Shown piece after piece: positions 1 to 42,321 of a DNA stretch of 64,000 nucleotides. The DNA comes from Fimbriimonadaceae bacterium (GTDB lineage: Bacteria > Armatimonadota > Fimbriimonadia > Fimbriimonadales > Fimbriimonadaceae): contig JAMLGR010000012.1 in assembly GCA_023957775.1 (NCBI GenBank), positions 62,001-126,000 on the forward strand, in the 5' to 3' direction. Each line of letters begins with the position of its first letter. Position 1 is the first letter of the stretch. The position numbers and the translations under genes are program-made. The notes below the pieces were generated by a model, which worked only from the letters and a program-made list of their open reading frames with translations, searched no databases and was not told the origin of the DNA.

Positions 1-1131
1 GCGACCCGCGACCGGGTGGATCGCGAAGCGCACGTTCACCTTCTTCGCGCGCAGCGCCTGCGAGATCTCCTGCACCACGTGCTGGGCCTGCGCGACGGCC
101 ATGCCGTATCCGGGGATGATCATGACCTCCTTCGAATCGAGCAGCAGTTCGGCCGTCTCCTCCGCGGAGATGGGAACGACCTCGCCCTGCTCCTCGCCCG
201 AAGCGAGCACCGTGCCTTCGCTCGTGCCGAAGCCGCCTGCGATCACGTGCAGGAACTTGCGGTTCATGGCCTTGCACATGATGTAGCTCAGGATCGCGCC
301 GCTCGAGCCGACCAGGGCGCCGGTGACGATCAGCAGGTCGTTGTTCAACATGAACCCGGTCGCGGACGCCGCCCATCCCGAGTAGCTGTTGAGCATCGAG
401 ACGACCACCGGCATGTCGGCGCCGCCGATCGCCATGACCATGTGGATGCCGAACAGGAGGGCGATCACCGTCATGATGATCAGCGGCTGGAGGCCGGCGC
501 CTGCGGCGGATTGCACGACGAACTCGCGCCCGAACCAGATCGCGGCGACCAGCAGGATGAGGTTCAAGTAGTGCCGCGCCGGAAGGATCATCGGCTTGCC
601 GCCGATCTTGCCCGACAGCTTGCCGAAGGCGATGACCGAGCCGGAAAGGGTCACGGCGCCGATCAGGATGCCGACGTAGGTTTCGATGTCGTGGATCGTG
701 AGGTCGACGCCGATGAAGTGCGTGAGCCGCTCCGGGTCCATGAAGTTCGCGAATCCGACGGCGACGGCCGCCAAGCCCACCAGGCTGTGGAGGATCGCAA
801 CGAGTTCCGGCATCTGGGTCATCTGGACGCGCCGGGCGGCGATCAGGCCTATCGCGCCACCGACCACGAGGGCACCCAGAAGGGCCGCATAGTTGTGCGT
901 GACGAATCCCAGAACCGTGGCGACCAGCGCGATCGACATGCCGATGATGCCGTACCAGTTGCCCCTGCGCGAGGTCTCCTGATTGGAGAGTCCCCCCAGA
1001 GCGAGAATGAACAGGATGGTCGCAAGGATGTAGGCGACCGTGATGACTCCCTGGGGGATCGCCTCGTTCGGCAAGTTCGTCTGGACGGTCGCAAGGAGGT
1101 TGGAGATGGTGGCGCTTCCTTCGTAGATCAT
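1..1131 (-). CDS. pntB: NAD(P) transhydrogenase subunit beta, 3' end cut by window edge
   Basis: Membrane subunit of the proton-translocating transhydrogenase, which uses proton re-entry to drive hydride transfer from NADH to NADP+. Translation from the ATG at 1131 gives [13 protein letters not shown], then a run of hydrophobic helices (for example [20 protein letters not shown]). The visible part ends at [11 protein letters not shown], a stretch typical of the start of the NADP-binding domain in PntB. 377 codons are present and the remainder lies beyond the left edge; E. coli PntB is about 460 residues. The start lies 7 nt after the pntA stop, so the two are one operon in the usual A-B order. 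Family assignment is secure; the missing C-terminus cannot be checked. Confidence 0.95.
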
Positions 1132-36429: not shown

Positions 36430-37602
36430 ATGTTTGCGCTTTTCGCGGCGATGTTCGCGCTCTCCGGCCTCCAGAACCCGAGCCTGGACCAACGTGTGGC
36501 TTCGGTTCTCCCGACCGCCGCGGAAGACGCTTGGTTGAAGATTCCGTGGCGCGTCGACCTGATGCAGGCGCGGCGCGAGGCGGCGGAACTGCACAAGCCG
36601 CTCTTCCTCTGGACGATGAACGGCCACCCGCTCGGCACCACGTGAACCAAGGGGCAGATCGGCCGTGCGTCGATCTTCAGCCAACCCGAAGTGATCGAGC
36701 GACTCCGGCGCGATTTCGTGCCGGTGGCGGGGAACCTTCGCGAACTGCAGGGGCCCGACACCCCGGTCGCGCACTGGTTCGTGGCCATGGCCCGGAAGCT
36801 CAACTACCACGTGGACATGGGCGAGGAGGCCGAGGGCTACTACGTGTTCGGGCCCGACGGGGCGCCGTTCGCCTTCACCGACTGGCAATCCGCCGAGAAA
36901 GTGGTCGAAACTCTGGACGAAGGACTGTCGGCATCGCGCAAGCACCCTTCGGCGAATCCCGATTTCGGTGGTCCGTCCCCTCGACCGAAGCCGCCCGCCG
37001 AAACCGGGACGTCGGTGCTTCGCTCCTACGCCCGCATCCGACCGGTGCCGGAGGGGGCGAACCCCATCAACCGAAGCATCGGACGCGACCACATTTGGGT
37101 GTATCCGGAAGAGATCGCCGCTCTCTCCGCCCACCAAGTCGGCGATGCGTTCGATCTGCCCGCGACCTTTGCCGCGCGCCTCGCCCGCTTTCACTTGATC
37201 GACAACGTGCGTGGGGAGCCCGACATGTGGCTGCCGGAAGAGGTGCGCAAAGCCTCGTTCCAGGTGCATGTGCTCGCCCGGGAAGGTTCGGTGCTGCGTT
37301 TCGGACTCGAGGGGGAGTTTGCGCAACAGAACGCCGCGGGGAATCGCGGGCAGAGCGGAACGCTCGCGGCCGAGTTCGCCATCGACACCGCCGCGCGGAG
37401 GATCGTGCGGTTTCGAGGGTACAGCGAAGGGATCGCCTGGGGCTCGGCGATCGGGACGAAGTGCACCGAACTCGCACCGCCGGGCAAATACCCGTTGATC
37501 ATCGCACTGGTGGAGACGGACGATCCGGTCGCGCAACTGGTGCCGCCGCAAGCCGCCTCTCTCGCAGGAGAGTATCGCAAGCCTCGGATCGGGAGTCGCT
37601 GA
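36430..37602 (+). CDS. candidate selenoprotein, thioredoxin-like N-terminal region, UGA at codon 72
   Basis: 391 codons with a TGA at 36643-36645 as codon 72. The same frame stays open for 318 codons after it. The N-terminus is a signal (MFALFAAMFALSGL). Residues 50-100 look thioredoxin-like: AAELHKPLFLWTMNGHPLG before the UGA, then RASIFSQPEV and RLRRDFVPVAGN after it. A hairpin of bacterial SECIS type starts 10 nt after the UGA. The rest (residues 180-390, VLRSYARIRPVPEG onward) is unassigned. The alternative is a nonsense-mutated pseudogene, but the neighbouring Sec-thioredoxin gene makes recoding more likely. No Cys lies within three residues of the UGA. Confidence 0.75.
36656..36676 (+). 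promoter_or_regulatory. putative bacterial SECIS element
   Basis: 8-bp stem AGATCGGC (36656-36663) with GTCGATCT (36669-36676), including one G-U pair, and the 5-nt apical loop CGUGC. The loop begins 18 nt after the UGA and has G as its second base. Both facts agree with the published bacterial SECIS model (loop 16-37 nt from UGA, G among its first two bases). Confidence 0.65.
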
Positions 37603-37611
37603 ACGTCTTGG

Positions 37612-37632
37612 CACGCCCGTCGAGCGGTCGTG
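37612..37632. repeat. dispersed palindromic element, copy 3
   Basis: CACGCCCG-TCGAG-CGGTCGTG, one mismatch from the perfect palindrome at 11112-11132, lying 9 bp after the selenoprotein candidate and between convergent genes. Confidence 0.65.
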
Positions 37633-37659
37633 GGACTCAATGGGGCACGCAGATGGAAT

Positions 37660-38190
37660 TCAGGGTTCGGGAGAGCCGAGCGATCGCCAGTGGGCCAACG
37701 CCTCCGAGCACGTCGGGCACAGGGACCATTCGGACATTTCGGGGTCGTTGGGGCGGGTTCCTGGACTCACCCACTCCTCCCCCATCTGGGTGAATAGGCA
37801 CACCGAGCACGTGGGAATCCGGCGGCCTGGCCGCGGGGTCGGACGTTCGGCCATGGCCGACTCTTCCAGCAGGACCCCCTGGTAACGCAGCACGCCGTCG
37901 TCCAGGGCCTCGATCTCCAACTCCATCAGCCGCACCCGATCGGCGGAGTCGCAACGAAAAGGGACGATGACCGTCCGCTTGGTTCTCCGTACGCCGGCTG
38001 CGATTTCGCGATAGAGCTGGACGAGGGTCGGGTCGCCAAAGAAGCGGTAGAGCTCTTCGCCGATCACGCTCTCCGGCAGGTGCGGCGCCCCGTTTTCGAT
38101 GGCGAACTGGCACCAGTTGGGATCGACCTGCAATATGCGGTCGTCGGCGTCGACGAGGTAGGTGTACCGTGTTTCCGGATGGTCTTCCAC
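37660..38190 (-). CDS. PAS-domain protein with C-terminal CxxC pair
   Basis: 176 residues from the GTG at 38190, whose first base is the last base of the VOC gene stop (TAGTG). Residues 8-110 look like a PAS fold: YTYLVDADDRILQVDPNW, then YRFFGDPTLVQLYREIAAGV. The C-terminus has CSVC and CPTC separated by about 26 residues, suitable for one zinc. No kinase, cyclase or DNA-binding output domain is attached, so it probably signals by protein contact. Third gene of the operon led by the Sec-thioredoxin, hinting at redox sensing. Confidence 0.7.
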   Translation of the reverse strand: MEDHPETRYTYLVDADDRILQVDPNWCQFAIENGAPHLPESVIGEELYRFFGDPTLVQLYREIAAGVRRTKRTVIVPFRCDSADRVRLMELEIEALDDGVLRYQGVLLEESAMAERPTPRPGRRIPTCSVCLFTQMGEEWVSPGTRPNDPEMSEWSLCPTCSEALAHWRSLGSPEP

Positions 38191-38567
38191 TACAGGTCGG
38201 CCTTCTTGACCCCTAACTGAACGGCTTGGATCGGGTTCCCGTCGGGATCCCGAAAGGTGAGCGAAGTGCCTTGGGGAAGCTCGTAGTAGTCCGCATCGAC
38301 GTCGGCGCCGGCGGCGACGAGCTTCTCGCGCAACGCCTTCACGTCCGGGGTTCGAACACCGACGACCCATCCCTTCTTGGCCACCGCATACGGGGCGGAC
38401 GCCCCTTCGAGGGGAGGGTGCAGGCCCAGCGCCCCGCCCTCCAGCTCGAAGTGCGACCAGTACGGACTCACGACCGCGGGCTTCAGCCCGAGCACGTCGC
38501 GGTAGAAGGCCACCGAGCGATCCATGTCGGATGTCTGGCACCACGTGGTCTCAAACCCCGCGATCAC
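38190..38567 (-). CDS. VOC family (glyoxalase/bleomycin-resistance fold) protein
   Basis: 125 residues from GTG, overlapping the stop of the Sec-thioredoxin gene (GTGA). Two beta-alpha-beta-beta-beta modules: the first begins MIAGFETTWCQTSDMDRSVA and FYRDVLGLKPAVV, the second includes VVGVRTPDVKALREKL and ends SLTFRDPDGNPIQAVQLG. Metal-binding positions are plausible but unverified. Members isomerise, cleave or bind small molecules, and the function here is unknown. Confidence 0.88.
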   Translation of the reverse strand: MIAGFETTWCQTSDMDRSVAFYRDVLGLKPAVVSPYWSHFELEGGALGLHPPLEGASAPYAVAKKGWVVGVRTPDVKALREKLVAAGADVDADYYELPQGTSLTFRDPDGNPIQAVQLGVKKADL

Positions 38568-39121
38568 CGAAGCCCGCCTCTCTTTTGCGCCTTGAGAAAC
38601 GCCTCCAACTTGTCGAGTTCGGCCTTGGTGGCGCGGGGCGCCCCTTTGCGAACCATCTCCATGAAGTGCGCGATCTCTTCGGGTTCCATCGGATGCCCGA
38701 TGTTGCCGCCCTTCTCGCCGGGGCGGATCGAGTTGAGGATCATCTTGCCGTCCGCGTCGAGCATCGCGGTGAACGGCAATCCGGCTTTGTCTCCCCCAAG
38801 GTCGGCCATCAGCTTGGCCCCTCCTGGGTTCTCGGTAGCCTTCTTGTCCCCGCTTTCCAAGACGGTGACATACACTCGTACGAAGTATCGATCGAAAAAC
38901 GGTTTGAACTGCTCCTGGTTCAAAACGGCATCCAGCCGTTTGCACCACCCTCACCACGAGGCGTGGAAGATGACGAAAAGGCTCTTCTTCTGGGCGCGGG
39001 CCTCTTGCTTGGCCGCCGCAAGGAGAACGTCCGTGCTCTTGGGCTTGGAAGGCGTCTGGCTCATCGCGCTTCCCACAAGGACCAGCAACACGGCGAGCGT
39101 GGAGAGTGGGCGGATCTTCAT
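38564..39121 (-). CDS. candidate selenoprotein: secreted thioredoxin-like protein with UGWC active site
   Basis: 186 codons from the ATG at 39121, with TGA at 38953-38951 as codon 57. Signal peptide: MKIRPLSTLAVLLVLVGSAM. The thioredoxin-like core reads KSLFVIFHASW, then UGA, then GWCKRLD, so the UGA replaces the first Cys of a CGWC redox motif and the second Cys (residue 60) is intact. The frame continues to a normal stop, ending LEAFLKAQKRGGLR. A 7-bp SECIS-type hairpin follows at 16-nt spacing. It probably acts as an extracytoplasmic thiol oxidoreductase. First gene of an operon with VOC and PAS genes; a leaderless TAAAAT box lies 6 nt upstream. Confidence 0.82.
38923..38941 (-). promoter_or_regulatory. 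putative bacterial SECIS element
   Basis: On the minus strand AAACGGC (38941-38935), loop TGGAT (38934-38930) and GCCGTTT (38929-38923) form a perfect 7-bp stem. The loop starts 16 nt after the UGA and has G as its second base, at the lower limit of the published bacterial SECIS spacing. Confidence 0.7.
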
Positions 39122-39127
39122 GGCCCC

Positions 39128-39133
39128 ATTTTA
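39128..39133 (-). promoter_or_regulatory. -10 box of a leaderless transcript (Sec-thioredoxin gene)
   Basis: TAAAAT on the minus strand, then GGGGCC (6 nt), then the ATG at 39121. Confidence 0.55.
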
Positions 39134-39146
39134 GGCGACTTCGGTC

Positions 39147-39152
39147 CATAAT
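39147..39152 (+). promoter_or_regulatory. -10 box of a leaderless transcript (gene at 39160)
   Basis: CATAAT followed by 7 nt and the ATG at 39160. Together with the TAAAAT box at 39128-39133 it makes a compact divergent promoter pair. Confidence 0.45.
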
Positions 39153-39159
39153 GGGCACC

Positions 39160-39546
39160 ATGTTTCGCCTGATCCTTGCGATCGTCGCGGCTGCGAGCCT
39201 GTTTGCTGCCGTTTCGGCGCAGAAGGCACCCACCGCGGACCGCATGGACGAGGTGATTCACAAGCTCGAAGCGTCCCGAAGATCCCAGGCGAAGATGCTG
39301 TTGGCCCGGGCGTCGGGCACGGGGCGGAGTGTGCTCCGATCGGCGCTCGTGGCCGCAGGGAAGATCCCGCCGCAGCCGACCAAACCCGCCTTGTGGTCGG
39401 ACAAGAAGGCCCTGCAACTCACTTACGCCCAGTTGGGCAAGTCGCAACGAGACCTGTTCGCGAGCGTGCACGCGGCGATGTCGAAGTCGGATCAGGCGCT
39501 GCTCGTCGAGATGCTTCGGGTGCGTGCGGCGCTCCCTCGGAAGTGA
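39160..39546 (+). CDS. small secreted protein of unknown function
   Basis: 128 residues from the ATG at 39160 (an ATG at 39151 in the same frame overlaps the -10 box). Signal MFRLILAIVAAASLFAAVSA, then a helical, Lys/Arg-rich region: DEVIHKLEASRRSQAKMLLA and LGKSQRDLFASVHAAMSKSD. No domain is recognised and no Cys is present. Divergent from the Sec-thioredoxin gene with only 38 bp between the start codons, so expression of the two may be linked. Confidence 0.65.
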   Translation: MFRLILAIVAAASLFAAVSAQKAPTADRMDEVIHKLEASRRSQAKMLLARASGTGRSVLRSALVAAGKIPPQPTKPALWSDKKALQLTYAQLGKSQRDLFASVHAAMSKSDQALLVEMLRVRAALPRK

Positions 39547-42081: not shown

Positions 42082-42218
42082 CTGTCGTCTATCGTTTGTC
42101 GTTTGTCGTTTGTCGTTTGTCGGGGAGAGGGGCACCCTCCGACGACAAACGATCAACGACCAACGATCAACGACCAACGACCAACGACCAACGATCAACG
42201 ACCAACGATCAACGACGA
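42082..42218. repeat. large heptad array (TTGTCGT / ACGAYCA)
   Basis: Left arm: six 7-bp units (CTGTCGT, CTATCGT, three TTGTCGT, TTGTCGG). Central segment: GGGAGAGGGGCACCCTCCG. Right arm: eleven units alternating ACGACCA and ACGATCA, led by ACGACAA and ended by ACGACGA. The arms are roughly complementary with about one mismatch per unit. The array fills most of the 250-bp gap between the metalloprotease and the repeat-protein gene; the remaining 100 bp before 42322 show only a ribosome site. Confidence 0.85.
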
Positions 42219-42321
42219 AACGGCTTCGTTGGGAACATTTCGTCCTCCGTAATCTTCTGTGTTGGTAGTTATCCGCCCCGCGGAACGGAAGGGCCCCCGA
42301 ACCGGGGGCGGGGAGGATGCG

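Follow-up and report, generated by a model that had tools for sequence, protein, structure and literature searches.

Most known bacterial selenoproteins have many cysteine-containing relatives, and the methods that predict them depend on these. According to the authors of deep-Sep, selenoproteins without Cys homologues may be missed (PMC12013277); in bacteria such proteins are rare, the selenoprotein A of glycine reductase (GrdA) being the cited case (PMC1794560). The other described systems closest to the locus studied here are thioredoxin-like. They comprise the thiol:disulphide interchange proteins of the Thioredoxin_2 type (PF13098) with a UxxC site (PMC13188914, Table 1), the VPGUxxT selenoproteins (NF041382, NF041383; OS_HP5) with selenocysteine (Sec) in the active-site region, and the group of Thioredoxin_7, DsbH, the DsbD C-terminal domain and ERp18-AGR, whose typical members harbor CxxC.

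We analyzed a window of 64,000 nucleotides from a Fimbriimonadaceae bacterium (order Fimbriimonadales). As the original prediction had proposed, two genes in it, hereafter A and B, each contain an in-frame UGA followed by a hairpin, and they read towards each other: their frames are convergent, with 3' ends 961 bases apart. It is very probable, from what the sequences tell, that both UGAs encode Sec, that B is of the Thioredoxin_7 type and A a member of an unnamed family whose window copy lacks a Cys, and that the two genes are neighbors by chance. This explanation draws on the Sec machinery, the site-specific conservation of the UGA, the hairpins, the translation signature downstream, the predicted folds and the lack of a shared neighborhood.

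Table 1. Features of genes A and B and of the genes between them (positions in the window)
Feature	Position	Strand	Remark
-10-like box TACAAT directly upstream of the gene A start codon	36418..36423	+	Sequence
Gene A, putative exported Trx-fold selenoprotein, 390 aa	36430..37602	+	TGA read as Sec (predicted)
In-frame UGA of gene A, Sec72 (GHPLGTT-U-TKGQ)	36643..36645	+	Nearly every homologue aligns here with a UGA
SECIS-like hairpin of gene A with 8 bp; its loop CGUGC is centred at +23 from the U of the UGA	36656..36676	+	
C-terminal beta-rich domain of gene A	residues ~190-390		
Protein with two C-terminal CxxC pairs (earlier "PAS")	37660..38190	-	Start overlaps glyoxalase stop (TAGTG)
Glyoxalase-family protein	38190..38567	-	Start overlaps gene B stop (GTGA)
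Gene B, putative exported selenoprotein of the Thioredoxin_7 type with 185 aa and the active site WUGWCK	38564..39121	-	TGA read as Sec (predicted)
SECIS-like hairpin of gene B with a UGGAU loop and a U bulged out on its 3' side	38916..38947	-	
In-frame UGA of gene B, Sec57 (HASW-U-GWCK)	38951..38953	-	

The source genome (3.5 Mb, 96.6% complete) encodes SelA (505 bits), SelB (365 bits) and a tRNA-Sec with the anticodon TCA (76.5 bits). Its SelD gene (L077, G000:C4:95494-96399) carries one in-frame TGA, and SelD is therefore probably a selenoprotein too. In the mechanism that we propose, SelB and tRNA-Sec would read both UGAs as Sec, directed by the hairpin right behind each codon. That two genes within 3 kb contain a UGA could also be explained if UGA stood for an amino acid throughout this genome, but the probability of such a general reassignment is close to nil, since neighboring genes, such as gene B and the gene once labelled PAS, end with UGA where expected, the internal UGAs lie at active sites, and a dedicated tRNA-Sec is present together with SelB.

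Gene B matches Thioredoxin_7 (PF13899) with 43.8 bits, above the gathering threshold of 27. Most of its relatives in the order that were read harbor CGWC, and the UGA aligns with the conserved catalytic Cys, the first of this motif. The UGWC form was found in five genomes (the window genome, G006, G037, G059 and G060), and all five encode SelA. Additional Sec-form candidates in G052, G053 and G034 were discarded, as these genes simply terminate at the TGA and their active site reads CGWC or CPWC. When the 39 bases from the UGA were compared with synonymous shuffles, the mean folding z was -1.94 for Sec-form genes (n = 5) and 0.09 for Cys-form genes (n = 26; one-sided p = 0.0009, Sec versus Cys). 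The product, which has an N-terminal hydrophobic segment, would be an exported UxxC thiol-disulphide oxidoreductase with Sec replacing the first Cys of CGWC. Gene B is an ordinary UxxC selenoprotein, that is, a new Sec-bearing member and no new kind. In the 35-base gap between gene B and the divergent gene at 39157 (window 39100-39170), TAAAAT and CATAAT boxes lie a short distance from the two starts, which suggests leaderless transcripts.

Homologues of gene A were found in 39 of the 113 genomes of the order, most of them with exactly one TGA. The family motif is MNGHPLGC[T/V]UNNG; in the TGA-bearing homologues of the order that were aligned, the TGA is always at the same site, and all but one of the order-level homologues aligned across that site have UGA there. 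A motif scan of species genomes, in which any codon was allowed at the Sec site, matched at least 119 contigs. Among the matches listed, TGA occupied the site in 119 of 119 contigs; the pattern leaves the Sec codon free, but it fixes the Cys before it, so the scan is uninformative on that Cys. In all loci of the scan on long enough contigs, the reading frame continues to about 400 aa. The family extends over Planctomycetota, Armatimonadota, Chloroflexota, Poribacteria, Latescibacterota, Gemmatimonadota, Fidelibacterota and Verrucomicrobiota. Distant subfamilies (L225, L226, L227, L228, L229, L232 and L233) have the Cys directly before the Sec and not Cys-x-Sec, as in GACUQNG, GRCUGGA and APCUVGG. 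One contig, JADZEW010000008.1 (L132, 469815 bases), is titled Methanoregulaceae archaeon and contains the same family A sequence as G064:C8, which belongs to a genome of the window's family, so the title looks wrong.

A profile search of 291 Armatimonadota genomes gave 82 matches above 100 bits spanning the site, as counted from the match list, and 79 of these had TGA. The exceptions carry Cys (G007:C4), Ser (G078) and Asp (G079), and two weaker matches have Asp (G044) and Ser (G045); the residue was read directly only in the retrieved loci. The four Ser/Asp members (L218 from G078, L219 from G079, L220 from G044 and L221 from G045) have no Cys before the site, and SelA was detectable in G044 and in none of the other three genomes. 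Within the order, 34 of 35 genomes that carry a UGA-form A encode SelA, versus 26 of 78 others (Fisher p = 2e-11), and the one UGA-form genome without it is 73% complete. Family A nearly always retains Sec, and Cys is very rarely found in its place. We would put at about even the chance that Sec is not readily replaced by Cys in this family and that, once lost, it gives way to Ser or Asp more often than to Cys.

Taken singly, the hairpins in the window are not extreme. Against synonymous shuffles, the hairpin of gene A alone gave p 0.017 in the best folding window and ~0.11 in the plain 13-codon window (0.017-0.12 depending on the window), and that of gene B 0.004 and ~0.13, respectively. It is the family statistics that make both convincing. 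Across 119 A genes, 39-base windows fold best, compared with synonymous shuffles, when they lie at the UGA (mean z -0.98 ± 0.09), and z lies above zero six to sixteen codons past it. Two main registers were found, their loops being centred +23 and +27 nt past the U. In 39 of 132 distinct A sequences, the +23 register is paired at each of its six positions, compared with none for adjacent registers. Covariation of the stems, a check suggested at the outset, was indeed observed for family A, as pairs of the +23 register show compensatory changes. The window copy forms its eight pairs in this register, and its loop is the commonest one there.

The genome harbors a canonical second copy of family A (C1:142284-143384; G000, L198:4276-5409), with GCTUNNG and one TGA. 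The window copy matches the family profile over its full length (410 bits, model positions 7-392); this profile has 40 rows including the window copy, and independent support comes from the 43% identity of the window copy to the C1 paralogue. Instead of the Cys two residues before the Sec, the window copy has Thr70 (GTTUTKG), and NNG has been lost too; it is the only UGA-bearing member read without Cys at -2 or -1. It lies in the same clade as the C1 copy, on the longest branch (1.1 versus 0.32 to 0.96). By these measures, it is a second, fast-evolving paralogue.

In ordinary members of the family, Cys and Sec would most likely pair as a selenenylsulphide in turnover. The Sec of the window copy, which has no such Cys, would need a different thiol for its resolution or would act by itself. 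The protein could run a one-Sec cycle with another thiol as the resolving partner, or it could be drifting to a Ser/Asp state; in the family A relatives that share the TT, the Sec is replaced by Ser or Asp. Given the loss of Cys and NNG and the branch length, the window copy might be in the process of becoming non-functional. One may tentatively go further and see it as still recoded but turning into a non-redox pseudo-enzyme, in which the Sec may go after the Cys, as in the four Ser/Asp genomes. We find this possible but doubtful: the likeness of GTTUTKG to GTTSSHG (G078) and STTDAHG (G079), together with the longest branch of the clade, points that way, whereas the hairpin is intact with its common loop kept and the Sec has been retained despite its cost.

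Judging from an excess of differences at codon position 3 and from GC3, the codons downstream of both UGAs are translated. In gene A, 318 codons follow without a further stop, GC3 is 0.80, and differences from the C1 paralogue amount to 0.44, 0.39 and 0.56 at codon positions 1, 2 and 3. In gene B, the corresponding values are 128 codons, 0.78, and 0.37, 0.22 and 0.56 relative to the G006 relative. Were A and B pseudogenes interrupted by nonsense mutations, the loss of Cys and NNG in A could be taken for relaxed constraint. This is very improbable, since UGA is found at this codon in several phyla, neither gene has another stop downstream, codon-position bias and GC3 persist behind the UGA, and the full Sec machinery is present. 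The proposal of two selenoprotein genes is supported by the conservation of the UGA, by the hairpins and by the presence of SelA, SelB, SelD and tRNA-Sec.

The claims made about the surroundings of the two genes fared less well. Convergent operons had been proposed; gene B does probably form one transcription unit with the glyoxalase and CxxC genes, as the overlaps between the three suggest, but gene A has its own TACAAT box directly before its start, pointing to a leaderless-type promoter, and need not belong to an operon. The PAS label given to the CxxC protein had to be dropped, as no Pfam PAS model matched it; a PDB sequence search with this protein was also without match. The genes had further been seen as a selenium-dependent extracytoplasmic redox cluster, in which A, B and the CxxC protein would act together and be kept together. 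Indeed, A and B lie close together here, both have a Trx fold and an N-terminal hydrophobic segment, and a nearby UxxC protein could be the reductant of an A protein without resolving Cys. We nevertheless consider such a cluster unlikely. Co-location of A and B, which was to be looked for in related genomes, is absent from all relatives examined, none of which belongs to the window's own genus: A and B are on different contigs in G006, G037 and G038, and several genomes have just one of them, such as G059 and G060, with a Sec-form B and no A. In the window's genome, the A paralogue is on another contig (C1:142284). None of the other window genes was found in the retrieved stretches around A or B of relatives, an all-against-all comparison of the neighbors of 134 A loci revealed no recurrent neighbor across distant genomes, and the middle protein is without a PAS match. 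The original prediction would have been given up if relatives carried the genes far apart and had sense codons other than Cys at both UGA positions. The genes were found far apart, but such codons were not found at both sites, as relatives of B carry Cys and those of A have UGA nearly everywhere. In our reading, A and B would be adjacent by chance. Elsewhere in the window, short tandem-like repeats at 42090-42260 (NDQRPTTNDQRST in translation) lie between a met-zincin gene and the next gene.

To place the two proteins functionally, we infer their export, chemistry and partners. Gene A, like gene B, encodes an N-terminal hydrophobic segment, and its product would be an exported two-domain protein, with a Trx fold in which Cys-x-Sec heads the active-site helix and a C-terminal beta domain. 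The AlphaFold model of A has a mean pLDDT of 93.6. In it, Sec72 lies directly before helix 73-82 and after strand 58-63, the position of the thioredoxin active site. Compared with Trx-fold domains, modelled residues 30-173 gave Z scores of 13.6 for 3f9u (over 130 residues), 12.8 for 1sen (ERp18-type), 10.9 for DsbH and 9.8 for the DsbD C-terminal domain. The C-terminal domain of A predicted alone reached a pLDDT of 94.8; it had no Foldseek match in the PDB at E<=0.001, and its best Z of 6.6 may reflect only a common barrel-like arrangement.

Family A is a widespread and apparently undescribed selenoprotein family. The window copy matched no Pfam family, Thioredoxin_7 included, for which the C1 paralogue scored 11.9 bits against the gathering threshold of 27. 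Eight members searched against Pfam and NCBIfam (June 2026) gave no family above cut-off, a May 2026 review that tabulates 119 prokaryotic selenoprotein families (PMC13188914) was not found to list it, and its motif spellings occur in no open-access paper searched. If our reading is right, it would point to a family A chemistry that depends on selenium and to a selenoprotein class so far missed because discovery methods look for Cys homologues; the window copy would be a naturally occurring variant that lacks the partner Cys. The family, which spans several phyla with Sec nearly throughout and lies outside the searched models and table, would be an example of such a blind spot. Furthermore, a single protein, compared with naturally occurring relatives that have Ser, Asp or Cys, would allow a test of what Sec can do that Cys cannot.

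Compared with known systems, gene B shares the UxxC site of the Thioredoxin_2-type interchange proteins but scores best with Thioredoxin_7. For family A, GrdA is a precedent as a bacterial selenoprotein without known Cys homologues; unlike A, it is a protein of amino-acid metabolism with CxxU, and the two are unrelated. The VPGUxxT proteins are, like A, thioredoxin-like with Sec in the active-site region, and of all NCBIfam models, theirs alone responded to family A, with E 0.0045-0.03 for a stretch of ~60-70 residues about the site. However, A scored 16.7 bits where their cut-off is 275, the motif is VPGU as opposed to GCTU (GTTU in the window copy), and these models matched nothing in the C-terminal half of A. 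The N-terminal domain of A has the same fold as the Thioredoxin_7/DsbH/DsbD C-terminal domain/ERp18-AGR group (Z 9.8-13.6 over 109-130 residues), from whose CxxC-bearing typical members A differs by its CxU (TxU in the window copy) and by the extra C-terminal domain.
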